From the IMG/VR virus record IMGVR_UViG_3300031957_002393, positions 1-20,372 of that record: a stretch of 20,372 bases of DNA. The stretch is one strand, 5' to 3'. Numbering within the stretch: position 1 is the first letter of the stretch; each line of letters opens with the position of its first letter. This document shows, in pieces, positions 1 through 20,372 of this stretch. The notes under the pieces were generated by a model. That model did not search any database, had not been told where the DNA came from, and was given only the letters and a program-made list of their open reading frames with translations. This stretch comes from a virus. A program made the position numbers and the translations under genes.

Positions 1-374
1 TCGCCTTGCAGTCGAAGCTCAAGGTTATGCAGATTGCGGATGGTCTTGGTGGCGCACAAGGGGGTATCGAGGCCCCTGCCAAGCTGGTGGGTGTAAAGGA
101 TGGATGGCTAACGGTAACTGTGCGTTCCCGTCAGCGCGTGAAGATCCATCGTGAGACGCTGGCCTCTGAGGAAGGTGACTTCCGTATCATCGCTTACGAC
201 CAGAAGCAATCTGACGGTGTGAGAGCGCGTATGGTGCAACTACTTACGCAGCGCCTTGGTGTCACTCAGGATTGTCCCCTGCTCGACGCTGCCCTCACAG
301 CCGAGCTACAGGCATGGGTCGATGGCACCCTTGACGAAACCGCCTTCCGCACTCAACACGACTACAAGGAGTAG
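1..374 (+). CDS. Hypothetical phage protein, 5' end cut by the window edge
   Basis: The reading frame is open from the left edge to a TAG at 372-374, and at least 123 codons are visible. A TTG at 6-8 could start it, but no Shine-Dalgarno sequence is visible there and the frame continues off the window, so I treat it as partial. The visible part has a short beta-rich stretch (about residues 25-50, counting from the TTG) containing VKDGWLTVTVRSRQRVKIH, followed by a mostly helical C-terminal half. I recognise no family and see no catalytic motif, cysteine cluster or membrane segment. It ends two bases before the ATG of the dCTP deaminase gene, and the ribosome binding site of that gene lies inside its last codons. 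The two are therefore probably co-transcribed, and a role in early or middle phage DNA metabolism is possible but is inferred from position only. Confidence 0.6.
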   Translation, partial: ALQSKLKVMQIADGLGGAQGGIEAPAKLVGVKDGWLTVTVRSRQRVKIHRETLASEEGDFRIIAYDQKQSDGVRARMVQLLTQRLGVTQDCPLLDAALTAELQAWVDGTLDETAFRTQHDYKE

Positions 375-376
375 TG

Positions 377-1015
377 ATGCTGGGACACGAGGCTATCAAG
401 TGGTGCATCGAGCAAGGTCACATTCGTGTGGAGCCCGAGCCTGCGTTCATTGGAGTCAACTCGATTGACCTACGGCTGGGCAACAAAATGCTCATCAACA
501 AGAGTAGCTTTGAGGAGAACGGTTACTGGCGACCTGTCGACCCTCATCGTGACGAACTGCACATGGTACCGTTAGGTTTCCACGAAGACGCAGATTGCGT
601 GACAGAAGGTTGGTTACTTGAACCCGGGGAGTTTTATCTGGGCGAGACACTTGAGACCACATACTGTAGAGGCTTGGTGCCGAAGATCGATGGCCGTTCG
701 ACCACTGGTCGCTTTGGCGTCAGTGTGCATCAGACTGCAGGTGTGGGCGACAACGGCTTCGATGGTCGATGGACTCTTGAAATCACCGTCAACGTGCCTA
801 TCATCCTACGTCCTGGCGATCGTATCTGTCAAGTGTACTTCGAGCCATGCTGGAGCAGAGAGGCGACCAAAAGGTTTTTTCGAGGCAGAACGGTTTTAAC
901 CCAACAAGGACTAAAGAGCGAATCCCCTCACGTCGAGTTGAATCACCTGTACGGTGGCGACAACCATCACTACACTAACCAACAAGGCGCTACCGTTGGC
1001 AAGAAGCTGGATTGA
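377..1015 (+). CDS. dcd: dCTP deaminase (Dcd family)
   Basis: This 212-residue protein probably deaminates dCTP to dUTP in the cytoplasm, feeding dTTP synthesis for phage DNA replication. The family signature is clear. GRSTTGRFGVSVH supplies R107, S108 and R112, and TLEIT supplies E135; these match E. coli Dcd R110, S111, R115 and E138 with a constant offset of three. The nearby stretches QTAGVGDNGFDG and PIILRPGDRICQVYFEP are also typical. It is somewhat longer than the roughly 193-residue E. coli enzyme, with about 40 extra C-terminal residues rich in His, Asn and Gln. I chose ATG 377 over GTG 374 because AAGGAG at 366-371 is five bases from the ATG but only two from the GTG. Some family members also hydrolyse dUTP; I cannot tell from the sequence whether this one is monofunctional or bifunctional. 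Confidence 0.9.
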   Translation: MLGHEAIKWCIEQGHIRVEPEPAFIGVNSIDLRLGNKMLINKSSFEENGYWRPVDPHRDELHMVPLGFHEDADCVTEGWLLEPGEFYLGETLETTYCRGLVPKIDGRSTTGRFGVSVHQTAGVGDNGFDGRWTLEITVNVPIILRPGDRICQVYFEPCWSREATKRFFRGRTVLTQQGLKSESPHVELNHLYGGDNHHYTNQQGATVGKKLD

Positions 1016-2555: not shown

Positions 2556-3089
2556 TCACTTCAACTTCTCATTGAGGTGCGGCTTGAGTCGACCTGCTAC
2601 ACGAAAGGGACCGGCGCGACGATAGTGAACAACCTGCAGCGCTCGTTCAGGGTATTGCCCGTTGACGTTCCTTGCGCCACTACCGCTGGAGGCGTGGAGG
2701 CAGAGACCGTACCCGAGAGCAGGTGTCACATGGTAGATTTTCTTCGCGTTACCTTGGTAGAAGTAGGCGTCACCCGGCTTTGCGTCGTCAGGATCAATTG
2801 CGTCAAAGGCTTTCATTGCAAGTGTGTGTGCTGTAGCATCCTTCCAATCACTGAACGTTGACCACGAGTCTTCGTTGATCATCCCCATGCGAAGCAACAC
2901 CCACTGCATCCACGCTGAGCAATCTCCACCCCTTCCACCGCCCGTACCCTTTGGCCACGTAGACGGGTCGAGCGGATCGAGTCGTTGTAGATCCACTAAG
3001 TTACCTGCCCCCCACGAGTAAGGGATTCCCACAGGCTCCACAAGCTCTCGGGTGATGGGGTAGTCTCTGAAACAACGAGCGAGTGTCAT
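2556..3089 (-). CDS. Endolysin, NlpC/P60-like cysteine peptidase
   Basis: This 177-residue protein probably cleaves peptide bonds in peptidoglycan at the end of infection. The fold signature is visible: GIPYSWGAG (21-29), then the nucleophile in GGDCSAW (Cys57), KPGDAYFY (104-111), the catalytic histidine in YHVTPALGYG (His120), and a third polar residue in LHASSG (His132). This Cys-His-His order is that of NlpC/P60 papain-like peptidases. There is no signal peptide or cell-wall-binding domain, so release through a holin would be needed. The start is supported by AGGAG seven bases before ATG 3089. It is the first gene of a four-gene cassette with a 150-base leader that contains a promoter candidate. 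Using a peptidase rather than a lysozyme or T7-type amidase is notable. A role as a virion-associated hydrolase is less likely, given its place with the small lysis-type genes. Confidence 0.85.
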   Translation of the reverse strand: MTLARCFRDYPITRELVEPVGIPYSWGAGNLVDLQRLDPLDPSTWPKGTGGGRGGDCSAWMQWVLLRMGMINEDSWSTFSDWKDATAHTLAMKAFDAIDPDDAKPGDAYFYQGNAKKIYHVTPALGYGLCLHASSGSGARNVNGQYPERALQVVHYRRAGPFRVAGRLKPHLNEKLK

Positions 3090-5066: not shown

Positions 5067-8000
5067 CTACTCGTCAGGGACGCCAGGGCTTGAGCGTGTT
5101 ACCCTGTCAACCTCTCGTGTGGCAAGGTCACCCCCTTCCACCTCAGTGTAGGGAATGCCCATCATAGCAATGGATGCGGCCGCCATTTCAGCAGACATGA
5201 AGCCTGCCTTACTTGCGCTCGACATTGAGCGGTTAATGTTCATCAGATCGTGCATGGCAGGAATTGCGCGCAACATTTCCATCGTGTTAACATGGACACG
5301 GTAAGTGCCCTTGTCAAACTCATCCTTCGGTTGCTGGTAATCAACAACCATGGGCATCGTAGCGTGCAGTGCCCAGCCAGTGATAGGGTCGAGCTTCACA
5401 TAGTCACCGCGAGTAGCCTCTGTCTGCAACCCGACCGTTGCGCGCGCAAGTGCTCCAACAACAGGGGCCCGAGACACGTCGAACGTATCGGCTGTTTTCT
5501 TGGGTAACATGCGCATACGTGCGGTACCCTTGTCGATGTACACAGGCTTACCTTCGATCTGCGAGATACCTGCTTGTGCCAGCTCCACGCCAACGATTTC
5601 GGCTAGCGTCAACGTAAACATAGCTACAGCACTCATGTGTTCAGCCGCAGCCTGCGCAGACGTATCAGGCATCATCAACATACCCGTCACCATGTCACCA
5701 CGAGCCATCATACGCGCACGTTGCTGTGGGTCAGTTACGCTGCCTCCAAACTTAACCGTATCCTTGTTGGCAAGGTACGAAGGTGTAGGTGTTTCACTCG
5801 GACGCTGAGCCAGACCCTGGTAGAACTTCATCTCTTCACGAGACCAATCGTATAGCTGCATGGCGCCTGTGCCCACAGTCTTCGCCCGGTACATGCGACC
5901 GTCGATAGTCTGCGCCATGCCTGAGGAGACACCCTTGAAAATCATGCGGATTCGCGCCTTCTCAATATCAGGCATGTTCATGTAACCGCCGTACTCACGC
6001 TCACGATCCTCGATGAATGCGTAGTAAGCGTCTCGTTGTGTATCACTCTCGAAAGCATCAGGGTCCACGCCGTAAGGGTCTGTGGTGGCAGCGTCGATGA
6101 TTTGCTGTGCAGACTGAACTCCGTAGGAACGCAGACGACGGGACACACCCATGCGGTAGGCGCCCATGGGAGTTGTGATGACATCAAGGAACTGACGGTT
6201 GGCGTTCTTCTGGAAAGCCCAGTAAGGGAACATCAACTGAATCAGGTACTTGCGGTCGAAGGAAGAGATGGATCCCGCGAAGTCATAGTGCATTTCTACT
6301 GTGAGTCGAGCAGCAGAGCGGGGGTCGAGACCTTCCTGCATCAGCGAGATCATGACACCGATACGCGACCGGACATCGAATGCCTCAGCCAATTCATCAA
6401 CCACAGCCTCAAGCTCACGGTAGTTCTCCGAAGCCGCCGAAGCAACACGTTGAGCCGCACGAAGCGGCAGCATCTTCTGAGCCTCGGACGACAAGCTCAA
6501 ATCTCCAGGCTTCAACGTTGCAAGGTCTTTACGGCTTTTGTCAAACACCGCGCGAGAGATAGCGTCCGCAAGAAGTTGAGTGCCGAATGTAGAGGTAACA
6601 CCTTCCTCATTAGCGACGTTGAGAATCTCGTTGCCTGTGTACTCACCTGTCGGAGTCTTGATGATCGTAGAGTCACCGCGTAGAACCGTGTTGACTTCGA
6701 TCTTATGGCGACTGAGAGCAATACCTTGAGCTAACTTGTCTCCGATAGCTTGAAGGCTTTGACGGGCACGTTCACGCATATGGATGCCCGCAGGGCTTTG
6801 CTTCCACGCTTTCCATTTATTTTCGGCCTTGCCTGCAGCCGCGACAAAGTTAGCAACAAAAGGAGCCGCGAGAGCGTTTTGTGTGCTCGCGCGTGTAATG
6901 GCGTTAATGGCGGGCTTCAACCCGGCTTGGTTGAACGTGAGGTCAAAGATATCGGCCGTAGACAGAGTGAAATACTTTGTCTTAGCGAACACGAGGCCGC
7001 GAACCATAGTTCGCTTGAAGCGATTAACGGCAGCATCCAAAGTGTCTTGGTTGAGTAGCTTAGCGTTGGACGCGCTACCTGTAGCCTTAATGTCAGGGTT
7101 GAGGCCGCGAGAAATGGCTTTGTCGAGTAGCACCTGCGCGCCACGAGGGATGCCCATTCTCTGCCCGTTGATGTTCACACCAACCAGGGTGTTTACCAAT
7201 CCGATAGAGTTAACCACGTCCTGAGCAATATGAACCTCGTCGCCTTCAAGGTGAACGCCTCCGAGGAAGCGTTCATACGCCTTACGTTGCTTCTCCGTGA
7301 ACACGGCTCCGACGTTAACCGCCTCCATGGCAGCACGGTGGCCCGCAGCGTGAGCGACAAGCAACATGCCTGCCTGTCGAGACGCACCGCCGTGGACGCC
7401 ATAGGTAGCTTCGATTTCATCCAGCACCATCTTCGCACGCTTACCAGGGGGCTCGTTATCACCTGCCTTCAATAGTGCTCGTAGCACACGAGCGTCGCGG
7501 TGATCAAACGGTCCCGGCGTGTTGGTGTTCAGCACCCCTCGCTTGAGGTCAGTAAAGAAGCGACCACCGAACACAAGATCAACCTCCTGTTCATCCTTAG
7601 CCGTCTTTACATCACCGAACAACTTCTCCATCGCGTTCTGGTACTTCTTCTGCGTTTCCTTGGATGCATGCACAAGGTCAATATGGATATCTTCGCCAAT
7701 GTTAGTGGCGTTGAGCACCTGCATAACAATATCACGTTCCGCGTCATCCAAGGAATCGATCTTGCGCCACATGTAGGCACGGGTGATACCTATGGCATCA
7801 ACATAGCCAGCCGATGTCAGAGGCACACCTGTTGCCGTATGTAGCGACGTTTCGCCATCGAGGTAGCGGTAGAATGTAGGCAGGTCTTTTTCGCCCCGCA
7901 GAAGTAGTGCAGCGGCATCACCGACCGAACTCTCAACTGCCCGACTCATGCGAGTGTAGAGAGGTTTGAACGGCGCAGCGATGTCAGCAAGTTCCTCATG

Positions 8001-11000
8001 GGGTCGGCCGCCAAACATAATACCATGTGCAAGCTGGGCAATCGACTGTGTGTACGACTTCGCGCCCTCATCCTTCGTGGTACGGTAGTTGACGATGTGA
8101 TCGAGTAGGTCAGATAGCTTGTCCTGCTCAATTGTCTCACCTGCCGTTAGCGTGGGTGTCTTTGGTGCGCGCTTCGACAACTCGATTAGTTTACGTTCCT
8201 TCAGGGTGAGGTTGATGCGAGCAACTGCGTCAGGTGTGATGTCGATCTCACCGAACATAGGCTTCGTCATCTGGATAGAATCTCCGTCCACCACAGCCTG
8301 CTTCAACACATCACCTGTGACAGCAACTTCGTCACCATCAATCTTGACCGTATCTTGACCATTAGCGATCATGTGCGCAGCCATTTCGCCGTAGGTATCA
8401 ACCTTACGTGCAGCAGCCGAACGACGCATGGATTCTTCAAGCGACGCAGCAAAACTACCAGATTCGTACTGATCGATACGGGTATCACTCACGGTCTTCA
8501 GTTTACCAACGGGTTGCACCAACACCCGTGCATCCTTCCGAAGCTGAGCGATAGTCAACTCCAGGCCATGCCTATATGCCTTCTTCTGCAACTCCACCGC
8601 ATCCTTCATACGTTGCCAATCTTGCAGTGCGCCTTCGGGGGCGATCCGCTTTACTGCTTCCACTTCCTTGGCGATGTCGTTCTGCATGTCACGCATCTTA
8701 CGAATCTGCTTCAACTCGATAGATGCCGTCTTTTGCATCTGAGCGACTTTCTTTGCAAACTTCTCAGCCGCCTTCTTTGCGAGATTCGCTTCCTTCTGAG
8801 CGACACGGACACGTTCACTCAACTTGATTCGTTGAGTTTCAAGACGCTTTAACTTGCCTTGAAGTTGTCCGATAGACTTTCGTTTACTCTTGTCTTCCTT
8901 GATGTAAGTAAACAAATCGTCACGATTTGGTGCGTCAATGCCTAATTCGTCAAAGCCGTCAACAAAATCATCGACAATGCGTTTAATGTTTTCTCGGTTG
9001 TACCCTTCTTTATATGAAGCAGGATCGCTGCTGACCTTACGGATCAAATCGTGCTCAGCTAAGTATGCCTTACCTTTAGACATATCGGAGATAGAGCGCT
9101 CAGCGGATTGCCACGCAGTTATAGGCAATTCGTTCTTAGACTGCAACCACTTAACGAAGAAGCGTTCAGTTGCGTTGTACCCCAACTTGTTAGCGACAAG
9201 CTCATACGCTCGCATGGCGAGACGGTACAGCGCTTCTAACCAGCGATTCTCACGCCAAGGGTGCGATGAAGGAAGAGCGGATGGACCCTCCGTCATTTTG
9301 CTCAAGGTAAGGGCTGTTAGTTGCTCTGCAATCCATTCATCAAAAGTCTTTAAGCGGTAGCCAGCACTTGACACCGGAGCGCTAGCAAAAGACGAGACCA
9401 TATCAGCTAACTCGATCTGACGCTTTAGTGTGCCTTTACTTCTCAGCATGCGTGCGGTAATGTACTCTTTGTACATACTCTTTAAGTCTGATGCAGGAAT
9501 CCACGGAGTCATGGCGTGCCACAACTCATGAACAATAACCGAACCAACGGCAGCTTTCGGCTGTTGCAGCATGCGATCATAGATACTGATTACGTTAGTT
9601 GCGAACTTGAAAGATCCGCCTACCATTCCATGTGCAGACTTGAACGCAAAGTTAATAGCGTCTAAACCTTCGTTGCCCACTAACGCGATGGCTTCAACCG
9701 CAGCGTCTAAAGAGGCTTCCCAATTAGAAGGCACTTTAACCGGCACGTCCCCTTCAATTGCGTCCTTTACGGTCACCTTTAGCCGATCGACAAACGAGCG
9801 GGCGCGCACAAGATCCGCATCAGACGGACCTGCAAGCATGTATACAGTATCTTCAAGGGTAGAGTCCGGTTGACCCTCAAGCCATTTGTCCCACCGTTGA
9901 GCCGAAGTTAGCTTAGATTTTGAATCAGCCTTGACACCCTCTGTACTTTCAGACTGCTTGCGCACCTCTGCAGTTTTAGCAGGCTTTAGCTTATCTGTCT
10001 TTTTTTGTGCTTTGGTTTTCTTCGTCGCCTTGCGCTTCTCGTGAACATCACGCATGCGCTCAATTTGTTTCTGGTCTTTGATGATCCACTTTGTGTTGTA
10101 AATCTCAAGCTCTACTTCAGCCAGGGCTTCGACAACATCTTGTTTAGCGTTAAACTTGTCGTTTTGGATCTTCACCAATCGATCAACTTCAACCTTTGCA
10201 GCCTCGTATTGACGCACAAAGCGATCGTCAAGGTTCGATGTCAACGTATCCCATAGCTCGTCAACACGCTTCTGATCAACCGCAGCGTTGACACCCTTCG
10301 ACATCACATCAAATAGCTCCGAGGCAGCGGCCTTGAACGAATCCGTGTCACTGCCGCCCTGTTGACGATACATGTCAACGAGGGGCTTTGTGAACTTATC
10401 TGAGAGATGGCGACGTAAGGGCTCCTCGGCGATCTTGTAGTTACCTGTGTCAATGGCCTCAAAGATATCGTCGAGAACCTTCTCTTTCCAGGCAATGTCA
10501 TTTGTACGGCTAATATCAAGAGTAGAGCCTACCTTCGTTTGCTGCCCCGTAGTCTTGAAGATACGCTTCTGTAGAGACCTATGGTTCCAGTAACGTGTGG
10601 ACATGAAGTCGTCAATAACTTCGTTACCCTCTACACCGCCAAAGAATGTAGGCTCCCACTTCGCATCAAACAGGATGGATTCAGGTTCAGCTTCGTCTAC
10701 AACACGAGCCGCAGCCGCAGTGTTACGATCGATCCACGGACCAATAGCGTCACCCAACTTAGGATCTCGACGGAGTGAAGCCTCAAGCTCATTGGCTTTG
10801 GCGAAGTCACCTTTCACTGTAGCAACATGAACTGTCTCTACAGTGTTAGCCATTGTTTCGACACGAGCATCGCGACTGACACCGGCAACTTTGGCGATAG
10901 TCTTCATCACCTTTGTTCCGCCCTTCACAGCACTCGCAAGACCAGCGAATAGGTCAGGGAAGACTACAGCAAGAGGGAACGCAGCCACGGTACCTAAAAT

Positions 11001-12314
11001 CTCGCCACCGGCCCCACCGGTAGCCGTGCGCCCAGCTTTACCTCCAAGCTCAACCAAGTTGTCACGCCCCGCGACACCTTCGACCTGGGCGCGAATCATA
11101 GACTTACGGCCCGGCCCAAATGGAAGCTCACCATTAGCGATGCTGTTGACAGTGTGCGTCACCATGCCTGTGAGCGCGGCTTGAGGAATGTCGGCCATGT
11201 TAAGACCGTACTCAAGATTACTCTCACTAACAGCAGTCAAGCGATTGTTGTCGCGACTGTAGCCGAGCACTTCAACGTTGGGCGTCAGAGCTGTTTGCGT
11301 CGCACCAGCAACACGAGTCAACCATTCACCATACTCGCCCTTCTCCCACGCATCGTCAGCCAAACGGAACTGTTCAGGTACCGGAAGGTAACTATCGGAG
11401 AAGTGGAAAGCATTGAGCCTCACAGGTCCTGCGTTCGAGTTGACTGTACGCCATGCGATTGCAAGATCACGGTGACGCTTCGCTTCCCATTGGTAACGCT
11501 TCGTCCACTCTTCACGATCTTCGGGGGTTAGTCCAGCGTCCTCTGTAGCCTCACGCGCAGCTTCGTCAATCTCCGCAATAGTGACCATCTGATTCGTGTT
11601 CAGATAGTCAACCCACTCTACCATGCTTTCGTCTTTAAGCGCTCGACGGATCTGCTCCTGAGCAACCATGTACCCAAGCTCGCCCTCCTTGGCCACATTA
11701 GCATCGTATTCAGCGTCGTTGCTGAATAACATTGCCTGATCACCAACAATGTCGACTTCACGGTTCTTGTCGATGTCTTCTTCACGTAGCTGCGGCAGGG
11801 GCTTCAAACCTCCGGCGCTCTTCACAACATCGATGAACTCATCAGCCTTCGGTCGATCACGCCGTGTAGCCTTTTCCCATGCCTGCTTTGCAGGGTACTG
11901 CATCTGAGCAAGACGATCCTCAAACTCTTGGGGATCATACCCAAGTTCCGTTGCAACCTTATCAACCGTCTCGCCCCATGTCATAGGAGGGCGAAGTCGA
12001 GCAGGTGCGTCTTTGAACTCAGGGATAGTAGCGCTAACACCAGCTTGCCAGAGCTGCTTCGTAAAGTCCCTTAGTTCTTGCTCGGACAGCGGCGCGGGCG
12101 CAGATTCGGCCTCTGAGGGCTTGGGGGGCACAGGGGCGTCAGCCTTCGGAGCCAGGGGCTCGGGAGCAGCAGGAGCCGTAGGCGTGGCGGGAACCTGGGC
12201 AGGCGCGGGCGCCGGAGGAGGAGCCGCCCCTCGCTCAATTTCATCGAAGCTCAGAGGCTCGACCGCAGACACCTGCTGTGTGATCTCTTCGGGGGTCAGG
12301 ACGCGAGGAGGCAT
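5067..12314 (-). CDS. Giant internal virion (polyvalent) protein with zinc-metallopeptidase motif, 2415 aa
   Basis: At 2415 residues this exceeds T7 gp16 (about 1300), but it occupies the same place in the gene order, after the smaller ejection proteins. Seen in order: a Pro/Ala-rich disordered arm (30-75); helical regions rich in Glu, Lys and Trp; a hydrophobic Gly/Ala segment (about 435-470, including GTVAAFPLAVVFPDLFAGLA); a Lys-rich helix (about 740-800); the motif HELWH (His929, Glu930, His933) with FDEWIAEQL about 60 residues later (Glu993 or Glu997 as third ligand), typical of gluzincin-type metallopeptidases; a long coiled coil (about 1145-1225); and a C-terminal region with FPYWAFQKN (2029-2037). 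These traits match phage 'polyvalent' giants, which are packaged and delivered with the DNA. No lytic transglycosylase motif is visible. Likely roles are DNA ejection and proteolysis of the cell envelope or host proteins. The start has no strong Shine-Dalgarno sequence and no upstream in-frame alternative. Confidence 0.85.
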   Translation of the reverse strand: MPPRVLTPEEITQQVSAVEPLSFDEIERGAAPPPAPAPAQVPATPTAPAAPEPLAPKADAPVPPKPSEAESAPAPLSEQELRDFTKQLWQAGVSATIPEFKDAPARLRPPMTWGETVDKVATELGYDPQEFEDRLAQMQYPAKQAWEKATRRDRPKADEFIDVVKSAGGLKPLPQLREEDIDKNREVDIVGDQAMLFSNDAEYDANVAKEGELGYMVAQEQIRRALKDESMVEWVDYLNTNQMVTIAEIDEAAREATEDAGLTPEDREEWTKRYQWEAKRHRDLAIAWRTVNSNAGPVRLNAFHFSDSYLPVPEQFRLADDAWEKGEYGEWLTRVAGATQTALTPNVEVLGYSRDNNRLTAVSESNLEYGLNMADIPQAALTGMVTHTVNSIANGELPFGPGRKSMIRAQVEGVAGRDNLVELGGKAGRTATGGAGGEILGTVAAFPLAVVFPDLFAGLASAVKGGTKVMKTIAKVAGVSRDARVETMANTVETVHVATVKGDFAKANELEASLRRDPKLGDAIGPWIDRNTAAAARVVDEAEPESILFDAKWEPTFFGGVEGNEVIDDFMSTRYWNHRSLQKRIFKTTGQQTKVGSTLDISRTNDIAWKEKVLDDIFEAIDTGNYKIAEEPLRRHLSDKFTKPLVDMYRQQGGSDTDSFKAAASELFDVMSKGVNAAVDQKRVDELWDTLTSNLDDRFVRQYEAAKVEVDRLVKIQNDKFNAKQDVVEALAEVELEIYNTKWIIKDQKQIERMRDVHEKRKATKKTKAQKKTDKLKPAKTAEVRKQSESTEGVKADSKSKLTSAQRWDKWLEGQPDSTLEDTVYMLAGPSDADLVRARSFVDRLKVTVKDAIEGDVPVKVPSNWEASLDAAVEAIALVGNEGLDAINFAFKSAHGMVGGSFKFATNVISIYDRMLQQPKAAVGSVIVHELWHAMTPWIPASDLKSMYKEYITARMLRSKGTLKRQIELADMVSSFASAPVSSAGYRLKTFDEWIAEQLTALTLSKMTEGPSALPSSHPWRENRWLEALYRLAMRAYELVANKLGYNATERFFVKWLQSKNELPITAWQSAERSISDMSKGKAYLAEHDLIRKVSSDPASYKEGYNRENIKRIVDDFVDGFDELGIDAPNRDDLFTYIKEDKSKRKSIGQLQGKLKRLETQRIKLSERVRVAQKEANLAKKAAEKFAKKVAQMQKTASIELKQIRKMRDMQNDIAKEVEAVKRIAPEGALQDWQRMKDAVELQKKAYRHGLELTIAQLRKDARVLVQPVGKLKTVSDTRIDQYESGSFAASLEESMRRSAAARKVDTYGEMAAHMIANGQDTVKIDGDEVAVTGDVLKQAVVDGDSIQMTKPMFGEIDITPDAVARINLTLKERKLIELSKRAPKTPTLTAGETIEQDKLSDLLDHIVNYRTTKDEGAKSYTQSIAQLAHGIMFGGRPHEELADIAAPFKPLYTRMSRAVESSVGDAAALLLRGEKDLPTFYRYLDGETSLHTATGVPLTSAGYVDAIGITRAYMWRKIDSLDDAERDIVMQVLNATNIGEDIHIDLVHASKETQKKYQNAMEKLFGDVKTAKDEQEVDLVFGGRFFTDLKRGVLNTNTPGPFDHRDARVLRALLKAGDNEPPGKRAKMVLDEIEATYGVHGGASRQAGMLLVAHAAGHRAAMEAVNVGAVFTEKQRKAYERFLGGVHLEGDEVHIAQDVVNSIGLVNTLVGVNINGQRMGIPRGAQVLLDKAISRGLNPDIKATGSASNAKLLNQDTLDAAVNRFKRTMVRGLVFAKTKYFTLSTADIFDLTFNQAGLKPAINAITRASTQNALAAPFVANFVAAAGKAENKWKAWKQSPAGIHMRERARQSLQAIGDKLAQGIALSRHKIEVNTVLRGDSTIIKTPTGEYTGNEILNVANEEGVTSTFGTQLLADAISRAVFDKSRKDLATLKPGDLSLSSEAQKMLPLRAAQRVASAASENYRELEAVVDELAEAFDVRSRIGVMISLMQEGLDPRSAARLTVEMHYDFAGSISSFDRKYLIQLMFPYWAFQKNANRQFLDVITTPMGAYRMGVSRRLRSYGVQSAQQIIDAATTDPYGVDPDAFESDTQRDAYYAFIEDREREYGGYMNMPDIEKARIRMIFKGVSSGMAQTIDGRMYRAKTVGTGAMQLYDWSREEMKFYQGLAQRPSETPTPSYLANKDTVKFGGSVTDPQQRARMMARGDMVTGMLMMPDTSAQAAAEHMSAVAMFTLTLAEIVGVELAQAGISQIEGKPVYIDKGTARMRMLPKKTADTFDVSRAPVVGALARATVGLQTEATRGDYVKLDPITGWALHATMPMVVDYQQPKDEFDKGTYRVHVNTMEMLRAIPAMHDLMNINRSMSSASKAGFMSAEMAAASIAMMGIPYTEVEGGDLATREVDRVTRSSPGVPDE

Positions 12315-12381: not shown

Positions 12382-13497
12382 TTAAGGCTGCTGCTCTTTT
12401 GCGTCTTTAAGCAACTTGATTGCACGGCTAAGATACTGCTTCTCATAAGGCGACGCATCTTCCATACGTTTATACAACAGATCCTCACGAGCCTGCAATT
12501 TACGTGTACGCGCATTGCGCATGTCGTTTAAGTCACCATCTACTAACGCTTGCTGGTACTCCTCGTTTCGGGCTTTGTCCGCTTTGATTGCTTCGGACAG
12601 TAACCCCTGACGCCACCCATACTTCTGACCTTCTTGTTGCAACGTGGTTTGAGGAGCGACAGGGCCTACTTCTTGCCCGAGTGCTTTGAGAGCATTCGCT
12701 AGCTTAGCTTTTTGCGTCTTCTCTTCGGGAGTGTTAGCTCTCGCCAAGAGATCGTACTTGTCACGAAAATCCTTAACGGTAGCGTCGTATGAACCTTCAC
12801 CGTACTTCGAATCGATCTCATGGCGTTTAGCGTTGATACGAGAGAGAGCTTCTTGGTTTTGCGTTGCTTGACGTTGTGCCTCTTCTTGTAGTTTTAGACG
12901 CGAGCCAGCAAAAGCTGCTTCTCCTTGAGCCTTGCCCATGGCCTCAGTAAATCCTTCTTGCTTGCGCAAACCTCGAAGGCGCTCTAACTCATCTTTCTTG
13001 CCTGCAAGTGCATAGGCTTTGTCTGCGAGGGCTGAGTTGAGCAGGGGTGATTGCGTTGCACCTCTCGCGGTTAAATCGATAGCAGGCACACCGATACCAT
13101 CGTACTCACGCTGAGACGGAGCGCTTTGGGCAATCAGGTTAGCTTGAGTTTGCTTATACTTAGCTTCTGGCGTTAGGTACGCAGTCCCGCCTGTCCACGG
13201 CATCGCTTTATCCGCTGCCTTAGCTACGCTGCGCGCAATGCGTCCAAGCGCTGCGTAGTCAGGGGTTTCAGAAGAAACCTCTACACGCTCGGGCGCGGCT
13301 TGGTTAGACGGTGTTGACGTGTCAACACTTTTATCTACAACATTGACAGCTGTAGCCGAGGCAGGTTCCTGCGGGGGCGATGTAGTAGCGGCAGGCGTCG
13401 CAGTTTCTTTGGGGGTTGTGGTCTTTGGTGCCTTAGTCTCTTTGGGTTCAGGCGCACCTGTCTGAGCTTGGATGGCCGCCCATTGTTTTGGTGTCAT
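12382..13497 (-). CDS. Putative internal virion or ejection protein, 371 aa
   Basis: ATG 13497 overlaps the TAA of the 834-aa gene by one base (TAATG), with GGGAG about seven bases upstream. The first 75 residues are low-complexity and disordered, rich in Thr, Pro, Lys and Ala (such as KAPKTTTPKETATPAATTSP). The remainder is almost wholly helical and charged, with likely coiled coils at about 165-235 and 240-371. There are no cysteines, signal peptide or enzyme motifs. In T7-like phages three internal proteins precede the tail fibre; here this is an additional helical protein placed directly before the giant. A role in the internal core or as a scaffold for it is likely from context, but I recognise no family. 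The Pro/Thr/Ala-rich N-terminus resembles in style the disordered arm of the giant protein next to it. Confidence 0.75.
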   Translation of the reverse strand: MTPKQWAAIQAQTGAPEPKETKAPKTTTPKETATPAATTSPPQEPASATAVNVVDKSVDTSTPSNQAAPERVEVSSETPDYAALGRIARSVAKAADKAMPWTGGTAYLTPEAKYKQTQANLIAQSAPSQREYDGIGVPAIDLTARGATQSPLLNSALADKAYALAGKKDELERLRGLRKQEGFTEAMGKAQGEAAFAGSRLKLQEEAQRQATQNQEALSRINAKRHEIDSKYGEGSYDATVKDFRDKYDLLARANTPEEKTQKAKLANALKALGQEVGPVAPQTTLQQEGQKYGWRQGLLSEAIKADKARNEEYQQALVDGDLNDMRNARTRKLQAREDLLYKRMEDASPYEKQYLSRAIKLLKDAKEQQP

Positions 13498-16001
13498 TAT
13501 TCATCTCCCACAGGCATAGAGGCGCCCGGGTTAGCCTTCTTCGCCTTCTTCTTCTCTTCTTCCTCAAGCGTAGCCGCCTGCCCAAACATTTGGAAGTTAG
13601 CAGGGTTAACCTTCTCATACTTGTTAACGCCCGGAGGCTTAGCTGGAGGCTTGCGTTCAAGAGGTTTTGTTCGTAACGCATTGGCTGCAGCGCCGTCATC
13701 ACCCAAAGGAGATGGGATCTTATTGAGGTGAAATGTCTTCGGCGCTTCCTTCTTCAACACACCCAGGCGACGGCGCTTCTCCTTCGCAAACTCGCTGCGC
13801 TCCAACGCACCCTCAGCCATCTCGGGATCCAACTTGTCAAAAGCCTTATCCACCTGACGGTCAGTTTCCACATCAAATTTGTCGAGAGCCTTTTCCTTGT
13901 CTTCAAGAACTCGTTGACGTGTAAGAGCGTTAGCGCGAGAAGCACGTTCCTTAGCCCGTTGGTCGATACGGTTACGAACAGCCGCCATGCCTGTCTCACC
14001 CATAGGATCGTCAAGTTCCTTGAGCGGAGGAAGCATAGGCGAAGGCTCATCAGGATCGCCTTCCTTAATCGCCGCTTCCTGCTTCCTCAACTTCTCAAGG
14101 TCATCGGCGCGTGCCTGCTCACCGATACGACGGTCACGTCGAAGCTGCATAGTCTCAAAGACCGTCGGGTCCTTAGGGTTGGTAACGGTGATTTGATCGT
14201 TAGGCACATCCATCTCTGTACCATCGGGTAGACGGATTCGTGTAGAGCCAGCAGGTACTTCCTTGTTCCAGCCTGCGTGGCGTGCGCGCTTGTAGCCGTA
14301 GATAGGCATGGAACCAGGAGGTTTAGCTGTAAGCTTAACGCTAAGGGCTGGGCGATCAGCCTTGATGTCACGCTCTGCTTTCGAGTACGAAGGATCATCG
14401 GAGGTAACGAGACCAAAGCCCTCATCATCTTGCACTGTACTCGCAGCCACAGCTTCCTGTAGTGTTTCAGGTGCCTTGAACACACCGCCCATGTTAACGA
14501 ACGGTTGCTTGTCACCTTCGGACACAAAGGCGTCATCCCACTCAAGAGGCATAGGAGTGTTAGAACCCTTCGCTACAAACACCGCCTGCTTTGCGTCAGC
14601 GTTGTACAGTAGTGTGCCCGCGTCACTGGTAGACGCACGAATACCCGAGTCACCGCGCACAGACTCTTGGTAATCAAGGTACTCTCCGGCGGAGAGGAAT
14701 CGCTTCGACCCATTCTCCACGTCTTCGATGTACGCAAACTTAGGTTGAGTTTCACCTTCACCAATGTTATACTTCGCCAACATCTCTGGTGTTGCAGGAA
14801 CGTCAACCCTCACACGCTCAATAGCCTCTTGCGTATGAGAAGCGCCACCACGCTTGAACAACTGCCCATAACGCTGAGGGTGCTTCATTTGGAAGTTGAA
14901 CAACAACAGTGCCCGGGAGTCATCCTGGCCGATGACGTAGTTAGTCACTCGACCGTTTTCATCAAATGTAGCGTTACCCAGGTGCTCAAGCCCGTTATCT
15001 TCGGCCCACGCACGGAACTGCGGATTCATAATGGCGTTAGCCACCTTGTCCCGCTTGTCGCGTCCTTGGAAAGCGCCTCGATTCAGGTTCTCGCGAACGA
15101 AATCCTCTTGCATACGAATCGAGTCAATCTGCTTGAGAACCTGATCCACCTTCAACTGCATCATCGCAGGGTTGGTAGCCTCACTACCAGACACAGCGTA
15201 AGCAATCGAGCGTAAACCACCTTGAGCCATTTGTTCCATGCGGTCAATGTCGCTCTGCAGTTCGGCCTGTGCGGGCTGACCCCCCTTCTGCGCCTTGTCG
15301 ATGAAGGCATCAGCCATTGCATCGGTTTCACCAATCAGCGATCGCAACTCATTACCAACACGCTGTTGCTCGTGGTTAATAGACTTCGCCTGACTAACAA
15401 TCTCAAGCATCTGTTGAGCATTCGGGTGCCCGGCAAACTGCGATTCCAACTTCTTTTCAACGCTGGGATCAGATAAATCAAAACCCAAGGTACGGCGAAG
15501 GGCGTCGTTGACGTAAACAGGTAAACTTTGCCGCTGAGTCTCTGCGAGCACAGGGTCACGATTGATTTCAGTTGTGTAGACGTTAAGTGCGATACTCAAC
15601 TGATCAGCCACACCCTGCTTATGCGCAGCCGCCATAGCCGCATTGGCTTTATCCCTAGGACCAGAAGGAGCAGCAGAGATAGCTTGCTGATGCTTCAACA
15701 GAGCCTTCTTCGCATCAGCGTTCGTCTTCATCGCCGTTTGAGCGAGGTCTGTGTAACTGTTGATGTTCGTCGTAGCCAGCTTCGTCATGTTGTCTTGGTA
15801 CGACTCGATGAGCTTGGCTCCAGCGTTCAACTCGTTCATCGCGTACTTCAACGCAGCAACATTACCAGAGGTAGTTGCCTTGGTAATGTTCTTCATGGCT
15901 GTCATCAACAGCTTCGTTTCGTTATCATCGCGAGGTGTACGGTCCAAGGAATCGGGGGAGAGACCCTGAGAGTACATGTAGCGGTACCAGCGATCACTCA
16001 T
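13497..16001 (-). CDS. Putative internal virion or DNA-ejection protein, 834 aa
   Basis: This large, mostly helical protein has the size and position of T7 gp15-type core proteins. ATG 16001 overlaps the TGA of the 231-aa gene as ATGA, and AGGTGG lies upstream. Residues about 1-380 are helical and rich in Gln, Asn, Ala and Met (e.g. NITKATTSGNVAALKYAMNE). A more globular middle contains GRVTNYVIGQDDSRALLLFN. A beta-containing segment around 530-600 includes STRIRLPDGTEMDVPNDQ. The C-terminal part has a charged coiled coil (about 675-755) and a short EEEEKKKAKK tail. I see no catalytic motif, membrane span or signal peptide. Homology to a named ejection protein cannot be shown by eye; the call rests on size, composition and gene order between a gp14-like protein and the giant. 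Confidence 0.75.
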   Translation of the reverse strand: MSDRWYRYMYSQGLSPDSLDRTPRDDNETKLLMTAMKNITKATTSGNVAALKYAMNELNAGAKLIESYQDNMTKLATTNINSYTDLAQTAMKTNADAKKALLKHQQAISAAPSGPRDKANAAMAAAHKQGVADQLSIALNVYTTEINRDPVLAETQRQSLPVYVNDALRRTLGFDLSDPSVEKKLESQFAGHPNAQQMLEIVSQAKSINHEQQRVGNELRSLIGETDAMADAFIDKAQKGGQPAQAELQSDIDRMEQMAQGGLRSIAYAVSGSEATNPAMMQLKVDQVLKQIDSIRMQEDFVRENLNRGAFQGRDKRDKVANAIMNPQFRAWAEDNGLEHLGNATFDENGRVTNYVIGQDDSRALLLFNFQMKHPQRYGQLFKRGGASHTQEAIERVRVDVPATPEMLAKYNIGEGETQPKFAYIEDVENGSKRFLSAGEYLDYQESVRGDSGIRASTSDAGTLLYNADAKQAVFVAKGSNTPMPLEWDDAFVSEGDKQPFVNMGGVFKAPETLQEAVAASTVQDDEGFGLVTSDDPSYSKAERDIKADRPALSVKLTAKPPGSMPIYGYKRARHAGWNKEVPAGSTRIRLPDGTEMDVPNDQITVTNPKDPTVFETMQLRRDRRIGEQARADDLEKLRKQEAAIKEGDPDEPSPMLPPLKELDDPMGETGMAAVRNRIDQRAKERASRANALTRQRVLEDKEKALDKFDVETDRQVDKAFDKLDPEMAEGALERSEFAKEKRRRLGVLKKEAPKTFHLNKIPSPLGDDGAAANALRTKPLERKPPAKPPGVNKYEKVNPANFQMFGQAATLEEEEKKKAKKANPGASMPVGDE

Positions 16002-16693
16002 TGCGCGCCCACCTTTGCATCATTGGTGTTAATCATGTCCAAGGTACCGTTCTCATCTTCAACGCCCGGCACACGAGTCTGGTTAGCGCCTGCACCACCT
16101 TGGATGCGAGAGTCGTGCCTCATCTGACTATTCGCGGCGATGTCTTGTGCCATTCCACTCTGGTATGAGCCTAACACCGCACCAGCGACAGTGGAGCCAA
16201 CTTCCGCTCCAGCTTGTGCCGCTTGAGAGGCAGCGACCTGTTGAGCACCACGCGCAGCAGAGAGGCGAGCCAGCGATGCTTGACGCTCCATAGCCGCTTC
16301 CTTGCGAGCATTGGTTTCCACAGCAGCGCGAGCTTGAGCAATCGCCTTTTGTTTGTTCTCGGAGATGTTAGTGCGTTGCATGCCTAACAGGCCCGAGCGA
16401 CCGAAGCCTTGAGCCGCTTCCATGCGTTGGATATCTTGCAGGTCGCTGCGAGCCGCTTGATCAACGTCTTGTCGAGCCCGATTCACAATCATGTTCTTTT
16501 GGCGTACTGAAGGACCCCACCCCTGGCGCTCTCCCTTACGGTACTCCTTCTTCGCTGCAGCCAGCTCCGCTTCACGCGCCTTCTTGGCCGCACGGCCCCC
16601 GCCGATGAGCCAGCCCGCACCCCGGCCCAGGAGGTTCACACCCCCAGCCGCAGCCCCCGTGAGCAGCGCAGCCCCAATAGTCCCAACCGGCAT
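15998..16693 (-). CDS. Putative small internal virion protein with membrane-like N-terminus, 231 aa
   Basis: ATG 16693 is preceded by GAGGTG at a normal spacing. The N-terminal 33 residues are hydrophobic and rich in Gly and Ala (VGTIGAALLTGAAAGGVNLL, then GAGWLIGGG), like the membrane-inserting ends of gp14-type ejection proteins. Residues 35-175 form a long Ala/Gln/Arg/Lys-rich helix or coiled coil. A further Gly/Ala stretch (AGAEVGSTVAGAVLGSYQSG) precedes a disordered polar tail. It is the first gene of the probable ejection block and overlaps the 834-aa gene by four bases. The inferred role is to form part of the channel that carries phage DNA across the host inner membrane. A minor capsid or scaffold role would also fit the composition. 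Confidence 0.75.
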   Translation of the reverse strand: MPVGTIGAALLTGAAAGGVNLLGRGAGWLIGGGRAAKKAREAELAAAKKEYRKGERQGWGPSVRQKNMIVNRARQDVDQAARSDLQDIQRMEAAQGFGRSGLLGMQRTNISENKQKAIAQARAAVETNARKEAAMERQASLARLSAARGAQQVAASQAAQAGAEVGSTVAGAVLGSYQSGMAQDIAANSQMRHDSRIQGGAGANQTRVPGVEDENGTLDMINTNDAKVGAQ

Positions 16694-17624: not shown

Positions 17625-19256
17625 CTACTTACGGAAGTGAACAGCGTTGAGGATCGCACGCTCGTATTTGATTTCAACGGTCAACGCGCTGTTAGAAGCA
17701 ACGCCTACGACAATGACGAAGTAGTCAATGTTGTCAGTTGCTTGAGAGTTGCGATAGCTAAGGTACGCGAACAGGGGCACGTCTGGCCACCCATTCACAA
17801 GGCCCCCAACGCCCTCACCATCATCTGTGTAGTAAGGGGATGATGTTCGCGAAACCGTGACGATAGACTCAGGAATGACAGTTAAGCTACCGCTTGAGGG
17901 CTTGTAAGCAATGCCAACCTGAGCAAAGTGTGTGTACTCGTTAGCCTCAAGCTCTGCCTGAATAATGGACTTCAACTGCAGCCGACCCCACACCTTAATC
18001 AACCCATTGGGAGCGTTGTTGCCAGCCGACGTGGTGAAGTCTCCGCTTGTCGGCTTACACTGCATCTGCACGTTAGAGTGATCGCTTACGATATGTAGGT
18101 CACCATTTGTTAAAGTTGTTGTTGCGGGCGTTGTATCTGTCTCGTCGTACATCCAGTTGGTGATAGTTCGGACAAACGGAGAGCTACCAGAAACATCCAA
18201 CTGCGCCTGACCTGCCCCAATGGCCCCCGATGTAGATGGAACCAAAGCGCTACGAACCTGAAAGTGACGTAACGTAGCAGGCTCAATACGAGACGCATCA
18301 ACAGAGTTTGCCGCAGTTTTCAAGTTATCAAGGCTGCCAGCCTTCAACTTGTTTTGTGACATCACGGCGCCCTCAGACAACACCTCCGTACTAACCCCAG
18401 TGACAGAGCGAGAAGGGGTCAACTTGAGGTGCATGGCCATGGCAAGTAGTTGGCGATTGTACACAGCAATACAGTCATCAACAACCAACGCCTGACCACG
18501 AGAGCGAGGAATGCGCTTCGCTACAAGTTCAATTGTGTGGGAACCAGACGCAACGAACTTTTGACAAGATAGGTGGATACCGTCTGCCGCTCGACCCGGG
18601 CCTTTGATGGTGTTGACGGCGTCAGCAACAATGCCAGGAGCCAATTTCTCTTCGTTACCTGAGCCTTGATAACTAGAAGACGGTTTTAAGCCTGCAGGCG
18701 GTCGACGGTAAGCTCGACCGGGACCTGTCGCGAACACAATCTCACCGTCAACACGGATCGCAAACTTAACGCTGGGGTCACGGCTTTGTCGATAGTAAGA
18801 GGTGCCACCAAGAACCATTACCTCATCTTGGTTAGCAAACGAGTGACCGCGAGTAGCATCGCCTTTGATGAAGCCTGTCCACACGTATTGCAGCATGGCG
18901 TCGAGCTGTAGAATAGCTGTACCAGTGGTAGTCAGCGTTACATCCTCAATCACCGCCCAGTCATAGTCATTGGGGATGATGGTTGCTGCAGCAGGAACGA
19001 GAAGCCGCGTTGTAGGAGGGCCGCCGGGGTGACCGCCGGAGAAAACACCAAACCCCACAGGCACGGCTTCGGAACTGCCGGCTGTAGGGAAATACACTGA
19101 CACCGGTGCGCGTTCGGTCTCAGTAGTTTTCGATGCAACATGAACACCTTGAAGACGACTCAAGCGCTCAGCAGCTTGCGCAAAGTCTTCGGTCAGTAGA
19201 TCACCGTCAACTGCAGCATTGGCAACAGGCTTACGCCGAGGGAAATCGTAAGGCAT
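17625..19256 (-). CDS. Putative tail or appendage structural protein, 543 aa
   Basis: ATG 19256 overlaps the TGA of the nozzle-like gene (TGATG), with GGAG seven bases upstream; a TTG three bases earlier is a poorer start. The N-terminal 55 residues include a helix (DFAQAAERLSRLQGVHVASK) that could anchor the protein in the virion. Residues about 60-290 form a beta-rich domain (AILQLDAMLQYVWTGFIKG, KFAIRVDGEIVFATGPGRAY, SHTIELVAKRIP). A helical connector (KLKAGSLDNLKTAANSVDAS, about 300-330) resembles the linker that separates the attachment part from the distal part of many tail proteins. The C-terminal 200 residues form a second beta domain (GLIKVWGRLQLKSIIQAELE and NIDYFVIVVGVASN). The architecture suggests a fibre or spike component joined near the tail nozzle, but I recognise no named family and see no hydrolase motif. 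Confidence 0.75.
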   Translation of the reverse strand: MPYDFPRRKPVANAAVDGDLLTEDFAQAAERLSRLQGVHVASKTTETERAPVSVYFPTAGSSEAVPVGFGVFSGGHPGGPPTTRLLVPAAATIIPNDYDWAVIEDVTLTTTGTAILQLDAMLQYVWTGFIKGDATRGHSFANQDEVMVLGGTSYYRQSRDPSVKFAIRVDGEIVFATGPGRAYRRPPAGLKPSSSYQGSGNEEKLAPGIVADAVNTIKGPGRAADGIHLSCQKFVASGSHTIELVAKRIPRSRGQALVVDDCIAVYNRQLLAMAMHLKLTPSRSVTGVSTEVLSEGAVMSQNKLKAGSLDNLKTAANSVDASRIEPATLRHFQVRSALVPSTSGAIGAGQAQLDVSGSSPFVRTITNWMYDETDTTPATTTLTNGDLHIVSDHSNVQMQCKPTSGDFTTSAGNNAPNGLIKVWGRLQLKSIIQAELEANEYTHFAQVGIAYKPSSGSLTVIPESIVTVSRTSSPYYTDDGEGVGGLVNGWPDVPLFAYLSYRNSQATDNIDYFVIVVGVASNSALTVEIKYERAILNAVHFRK

Positions 19257-20372
19257 CAAACTTCTCCAGCGCCGGGGTAGCGCATCTGCTCATCAGTCTT
19301 GACTTCGTAACCAACGTGGATTGACATGATCTCCATGTCAACAGGGTAAGAAGTCTCCAACTCGATTTGGAATCGACGCACATCATCCATGTCAAGTGTT
19401 ATACGTCTGTACGTAGTACGGCGACGCGGCACTGTGGAAGAGTTACCCACCTGAACGACATCCCACCCGACCACACGGGAGCTGTTGGTTGTAGTAGCTC
19501 CCTTGCCGTACACATCATCAAGCCTGAGTACCTGCGAGTCATAGCGGTAGTCATCCTCAAAGTTTGTACGGACACGGATTGTGCAGGCTGCGCCCTGGTA
19601 CGTTTCGATGAAACCCACCACCATGTGAATCAATCGACCCTTCTGCACCATATCTTCGGAGAACATCATGGGCACAGTGCGAATACGAGACACACGGCTA
19701 TTTGGCGTGTAGACACTCGTTTCACGGTCAAGCACGTAAACGTCGGATGATGTGTATTCACCTGTACGAGACTGAAAGTCGTCACCCGCAACGAGCTGCA
19801 AGGAACGTGGGCCCTCGGTTACCGTGACATCAGCGATGTGAAGGCCCAGGCTTAGCTCTCGCCACCCAGAATCAGCTCGGTAACACAGGATCTTGCGGTT
19901 GTAGCTATCACTCAAACGAGCGCATGCGATGCGAAGATCCTTCGACTCTGGGTCGTACCAAACAACAGCTCGACTAAGGGCTGTGCGGTTGATTCCGAAC
20001 TTAAACAAGCGCTCGATGTCAGACGACAATACAGTGATTGCGGTGCCATCATAGGCGTAAACTGCTGCCTCTCCGACGAACACGAGACCGAGCCCAGGGA
20101 TGATACCTACGGCGGACGGGCCCACACAACCCGCCCCCTTGGAGATGACACGCGGCGCAGCAATGTCAGTCACGTCAATGAGAGAGCGACGAGTGAAAGC
20201 GATGCAGCGGTCATTAAAGGTCGCCAAGGCAGTAACAGTCAAGCTCTCATCATCAGCAATCGCTACGTTGGCTTCGGGGAATGTTCCAGGGAAGCCCGGG
20301 GCAGAGCGATACACCTTCTCATGTTCTGCAACCACCAAGCAACCTTGGTGCACCGTCATACAATGAAAGATG
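19256..20372 (-). CDS. Tail nozzle (T7 gp12/tail tubular B-like) protein, N-terminus beyond the window
   Basis: The frame is open to the right edge: the codons before the internal ATG at 20359 read IFHC without a stop, so the true start lies outside. The first visible motif, VHQGCLVVAEHEKVYRSAPG followed by FPGTFPE, matches the WHQGRLVVA...SAPGNP pattern typical of podoviral nozzle or tail tubular B proteins. Repeating beta-strand units such as LVFVGEAAVYAYDGTAITVL and RKILCYRADSGWRELSLGLH look like blades of a propeller. A final beta domain ends in the DMEIMSIHVGYEVKTDEQ region. This protein would form the lower tail tube or nozzle through which DNA leaves. It precedes the 543-aa gene with a one-base overlap. 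The family call is moderately sure and rests on pattern and gene order. Confidence 0.72.
   Translation of the reverse strand, partial: IFHCMTVHQGCLVVAEHEKVYRSAPGFPGTFPEANVAIADDESLTVTALATFNDRCIAFTRRSLIDVTDIAAPRVISKGAGCVGPSAVGIIPGLGLVFVGEAAVYAYDGTAITVLSSDIERLFKFGINRTALSRAVVWYDPESKDLRIACARLSDSYNRKILCYRADSGWRELSLGLHIADVTVTEGPRSLQLVAGDDFQSRTGEYTSSDVYVLDRETSVYTPNSRVSRIRTVPMMFSEDMVQKGRLIHMVVGFIETYQGAACTIRVRTNFEDDYRYDSQVLRLDDVYGKGATTTNSSRVVGWDVVQVGNSSTVPRRRTTYRRITLDMDDVRRFQIELETSYPVDMEIMSIHVGYEVKTDEQMRYPGAGEV

Follow-up and report, generated by a model that had tools for sequence, protein, structure and literature searches.

The window, the whole stretch of DNA that was analysed, comprises 20,372 bases and opens a virus record that is 84,372 bases long. 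Read along the minus strand, the genes of the record encode the capsid, tail proteins, three proteins of 231, 834 and 371 amino acids, a giant of 2,415 amino acids, small tail-like proteins and an NlpC/P60 endolysin (Table 1); the capsid, portal, terminase and tail genes lie farther along from the 231-, 834- and 371-residue genes. This order resembles the gp14–gp15–gp16–fibre–lysis order of T7, with the gp14-like and gp15-like names of the 231- and 834-residue proteins taken from position only. The portal of the phage matches the head–tail connector and portal families (E = 1e-16 and 6e-10, respectively). The phage is a short-tailed one (a podovirus) with T7-like gene order, and this order bears out the T7-like place within an ejection-protein cluster that a preliminary description had assigned to the giant.

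Table 1. Features of the locus in window coordinates; residue numbers refer to the 2,415-residue giant.
Feature	Position	Strand	Basis
NlpC/P60 endolysin, downstream of the giant	2556–3089	minus	PF00877, E = 1.9e-8
Giant ORF, 2,415 aa	5067–12314	minus	ATG start, no internal stop
C-terminal polyvalent-giant module, residues about 1810–2131	5922–6887	minus	BLASTP to MW202803 giant; family profile
Module core, residues 1979–2038, R..(M)..G..A..H[FY]D[FY]...FD+K...P[FY]W.F	6201–6380	minus	Profile versus controls
Long helical stretch, probably coiled coil, residues 1141–1260	8535–8894	minus	Composition
Zincin-like domain, residues about 885–1060	9135–9662	minus	SprT/YgjP profiles versus shuffled controls; sub-threshold Pfam matches
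FDEWIAEQL, residues 991–999, Glu993 predicted third ligand	9318–9344	minus	Likeness to N-E-F-M-A of N4-type zincins
HELWH, residues 929–933, two zinc-binding His and general-base Glu (predicted)	9516–9530	minus	Motif, profile alignments
Lys-rich linker directly N-terminal of the zincin, residues 755–815	9870–10052	minus	Sequence
Single hydrophobic segment, possible membrane segment, residues 438–463	10926–11003	minus	Kyte–Doolittle window average 1.9
Pro/Ala-rich N-terminal arm, probably disordered, residues 31–80	12075–12224	minus	Sequence and composition
371-aa Pro/Lys/Ala-rich protein, probable accessory ejection protein	12382–13497	minus	Position only; no family match
834-aa protein, gp15-like	13497–16001	minus	Position only; no Pfam match
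231-aa protein, Gly/Ala-rich N-terminal hydrophobic stretch, gp14-like by position	15998–16693	minus	

The giant is encoded by one 7.2 kb gene. The three motifs that the preliminary description had singled out, HELWH, FDEWIAEQL (with Glu993 and Glu997) and FPYWAFQKN (residues 2029–2037, window 6204–6230, minus strand), are all present with exact positions, and only the minus strand had gone unmentioned. The Pro/Ala arm, the hydrophobic segment and, as long helical stretches, the coiled coil described there are likewise recovered from composition and Kyte–Doolittle averages. Proline and alanine make up 44% of residues 1–85, while stretches rich in Glu, Lys, Arg, Gln, Asp and Ala, helical by composition, are found at residues about 720–815 and 1141–1260. 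The Lys-rich linker is a candidate region for cleavage or for DNA contact.

Searching phages and plasmids with the whole giant (tblastn) gave no match, and pattern scans of IMG/VR and GTDB for the giant, portal, capsid, terminase, peptidase domain and C-terminus gave no confirmed relatives in these collections, which may omit near relatives. The portal found a single tblastn relative, in podovirus MW202803, and this led to a related giant. At the same place relative to the related portal, MW202803 encodes a protein of 1,312 amino acids (L014:23805–27743) that probably owes its annotation, 'chromosome segregation', to its coiled coils and that is by context an ejection-type giant. Its C-terminus aligns with residues 1810–2087 of our giant (pairwise BLASTP, E = 8e-5), and the alignment includes H-[FY]-D-[FY] ... 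F-D-x-K ... P-[FY]-W-x-F. The tail protein encoded at window 19256–20359 resembles the MW202803 'phage stabilization protein' (E = 5e-5), a second link between both phages.

When IMG/VR was scanned at the DNA level with a degenerate pattern that encodes H[FY]D[FY], a gap and P[FY]W, at least 119 stretches were retrieved (L015–L133). Among the matches listed there are at least 107 ORFs with the motif, many of them 1,000–3,445 amino acids long, and the best BLASTP matches of the giant to these IMG/VR giants reach E = 4e-5. Having served to retrieve the family, the motif is no argument for membership, and the controls were 2000 shuffles of giant residues 1900–2120 in which the eight pattern residues were fixed. 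The family profile scores 16.0 bits against the C-terminus of the giant, with 5.4 bits for the best of the controls, and the giant is the top-scoring ORF of the phage. Three segments of the giant, two of them very weak, keep the order that they have in the profile, and two family loci also hold portals related to that of the phage. This weak but controlled similarity argues for a kinship of the giant to the family that is real but distant. The FPYWAFQKN region, earlier called conserved-looking, thus anchors a real and widespread family. Its invariant motifs are [K..A..PGF..RN], E...R, HFDY and PFW, and its members are mostly unannotated phage proteins; the 28 complete members contain no credible Pfam domain. 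A scan of 398 genomes of one bacterial phylum with the family profile gave no match and is uninformative, as the window giant was missed too. Three matches to FPYW.F.[KR]N, two of them in apparent terminases, were judged to be due to chance, and MT121964, picked up as a terminase relative, turned out to be an unrelated phage.

The conserved module of one family member (L131) was modelled with AlphaFold from 57 sequences (pLDDT 82.8). This fold has no match in the PDB. Its matches in a viral library, the best with E = 4e-22, are 'Large polyvalent protein associated domain-containing' proteins, some of which are named for zeta toxin, ART, RelA/SpoT or LT_GEWL domains. Since the family fold matches proteins of this kind, the modelled module appears to be a part that polyvalent giants share for delivery or packaging, and the kinship to 'polyvalent' phage giants that had been suggested gains support through the C-terminal family. 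The LPD38 profile (PF18857) matched neither the giant nor the 28 family members, and membership in LPD38 is therefore not claimed.

The candidate peptidase lies in the centre of the giant. HExxH is by itself weak evidence for a zincin, and the added evidence is located upstream of it. In Pfam, the SprT-like (PF10263) and YgjP-like (PF01863) families match the same stretch with 10.5–16.7 bits, below the curated cut-offs of 25.6 and 26. We built SprT, YgjP and MPTase-PolyVal profiles from fetched sequences and compared their scores with those of 3000 shuffles of the domain in which HELWH was kept. The SprT profile scores 18.1 bits, equalled or beaten by one shuffle in 3000, and the YgjP profile 13.6 bits, equalled or beaten by none of the 3000. 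The match spans the strand and turn that precede the active-site helix (...GGSFKFATNVISIYDRML..P...GSVIVHELWHAM), and the profile alignment would accordingly put HExxH into a helix following a β-strand. No match in the giant was obtained with the profile of ArdC-type MPTase-PolyVal (PF18818; −0.1 bits, 738 of 3000 controls equal or better) or with that of the N4-type C1 zincin (−1.6 bits, 279 of 3000 controls).

SprT and YgjP use a histidine shortly past HExxH as the third ligand. In this respect the giant differs from them, as no histidine occurs between residues 934 and 1017 and the next one is His1018. A glutamate is predicted in its place. All ten N4-type virion RNA polymerases that were compared contain HExxH and, downstream of it, E-F-[MI]-A (mostly N-E-F-M-A), and the aligner placed D-E-W-I-A of the giant, with Glu993, onto this motif. 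Because the SprT/YgjP-like match upstream is combined with the Glu993 motif, the domain is likely a zincin with a glutamate as third ligand and predicted zinc binding. The zinc peptidase candidate put forward earlier is in this way strengthened by an SprT/YgjP-type first half and a Glu-type third-ligand motif, both read from a single sequence. Scans of IMG/VR and GTDB with domain patterns found no homologue bearing the peptidase domain; five matches to the motif with the spacing seen in the window, all in GTDB genomes, were ascribed to chance. A 26-residue match of the giant to T7-like RNA polymerase (E = 6–8) was also discarded as chance.

Peptidases of this kind in giant injected proteins have precedents in phage N4 and among 'polyvalent' proteins (PMC5512222, PMC12633501). 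The zincin MPTase is the commonest domain of polyvalent proteins, for which self-processing, processing after injection and attack on host proteins have been proposed as roles (PMC5512222). Like the polyvalent proteins of Iyer et al. (2017), which combine an MPTase with LPD domains, our giant is very large, lies among late virion genes (2,415 residues next to gp14/gp15-like, tail, capsid and portal genes) and pairs a predicted zincin with a C-terminal module, but only one enzymatic domain is recognised in it, whereas polyvalent proteins carry several unrelated activities. The ejected N4 virion RNA polymerase (gp50, Schitoviridae) has an HExxH-containing C1 domain (residues 2124–2375; PMC12633501). 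It resembles our giant in being an ejected giant encoded beside other ejection genes, ejection of ours being presumed, in having a central HExxH zincin, predicted in ours, and in the correspondence of N-E-F-M-A to D-E-W-I-A. The two share no sequence similarity, their C-termini differ and the giant has no RNA polymerase domain. The MW202803 giant and the at least 107 IMG/VR ORFs among the matches listed share the C-terminal module with our giant, and the MW202803 protein also the place relative to a related portal, but none of them has HExxH or a recognised enzyme. This absence of HExxH from all of the at least 107 ORFs is strong but incomplete evidence, as many are truncated where a contig or locus ends and sampling relied on an exact motif. 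It indicates that the family can do without the domain in its shared role and points to a gain of the peptidase in the lineage of the giant.

We class the giant as a polyvalent ejection protein whose peptidase is lineage-specific, an unusual representative of a kind already known. In the reading that we prefer, at a probability of roughly one half, it is a large polyvalent-type ejection protein of a podovirus, in which the C-terminal third is a shared packaging and ejection module and the central zincin (His929, Glu930, His933 and Glu993) cuts the giant itself. Gene order and family point to a location in the virion. The protein would be packed in the head with the gp14- and gp15-like proteins and would leave it together with the DNA. 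The peptidase would then cut inside the giant, with the exposed Lys-rich linker as one possible site, and thereby free its parts from one another, either for assembly or once inside the host; zinc binding, activity, and the site and timing of cleavage are all predictions. In the closest case that has been characterised, the N4 virion RNA polymerase, the protein is packaged without processing, which speaks against self-cleavage being the rule, and its MPTase-bearing region is required for encapsidation (PMC5512222).

The near alternative to self-processing is the cutting of host proteins, with the giant as the carrier of an injected effector that, directly upon entry, attacks a factor involved in defence, transcription or the envelope. 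Host-targeted proteolysis is among the options of Iyer et al. (PMC5512222), the fold relatives of the module carry other effectors by name, and the domain is absent from the sampled relatives, as an exchangeable effector would be. Against this, neither a target nor a neighbouring gene that hints at one is seen, and a domain in the middle of the chain would need to be released or to act in situ; we regard this possibility as somewhat unlikely. The intact N4 polymerase and the role of its MPTase-bearing region in encapsidation would also fit a catalytically idle or structural zincin relic that serves folding or encapsidation only. As all three predicted catalytic positions are present in the giant and HExxH is kept in each of the ten N4-type domains, such a relic is improbable. 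It is still more doubtful that HELWH arose by chance within a helical region and that there is no zincin at all. The evidence comes from one sequence, the profile scores are sub-threshold and an AF2 model of residues 826–1085 from this single sequence was unusable (pLDDT 46, no strands or zincin fold). However, only 0.03 HExxH motifs are expected from the composition of the giant, the upstream SprT/YgjP match beats shuffles that retain HELWH, and the chance of finding [ND]E[FW][MIVL]A in the stretch downstream of HELWH is 0.0009.

The upstream strand and HExxH helix align with the Wss1-related SprT/YgjP metallopeptidases. A speculative further role would be that of a virion-delivered SprT/Wss1-type protease with Glu as third ligand that strips or cuts proteins on the incoming phage DNA or on the host chromosome. 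The Lys-rich stretch ahead of it could contact DNA. We consider this role very unlikely; if true, such protein stripping is not described for phage ejection proteins in the literature that was searched.

The least tenable reading is that of a T7 gp16-type protein in which a peptidase has replaced the transglycosylase, as the preliminary description proposed: the T7-like order of the ejection genes and the failure to recognise a lytic transglycosylase in the giant (Pfam) fit it, but the giant has no detectable similarity to T7-like gp16 (about 1,300 residues, with an N-terminal transglycosylase), belongs to a different C-terminal family that normally has neither enzyme and carries its zincin centrally. 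Nothing shows a replacement, as the giant, its 834- and 231-residue neighbours and the 28 complete family members are all devoid of recognised lysozyme and transglycosylase domains.

The giant described here joins a peptidase that is neither ArdC-type nor N4-type to a C-terminal module whose relatives lack a recognised peptidase. Comparing domain-bearing giants with those that lack it offers a test of why zincins are so common in ejected giants, be it for self-processing, host targeting or packaging. The analysis also brings to light a large and nearly unannotated family of phage proteins of 1,000–3,400 residues.

Among the long ORFs listed for the 84 kb record, which may be incomplete, helicase-, nuclease- and RecA-like ones are present and there is no obvious DNA polymerase. 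Antisense ORFs inside the giant are probably an effect of codon usage, and the same probably applies to a 491-residue open frame (L002:4065–5540, plus strand) antisense to the probable major capsid gene (L002:4320–5429, minus strand). Inspection of the sequence places a ThyX-like ORF about 68.5 kb into the record, and a dCTP deaminase-like gene (PF22769, E = 3.6e-31) is found at window 374–1015 on the plus strand, opposite to the structural genes.
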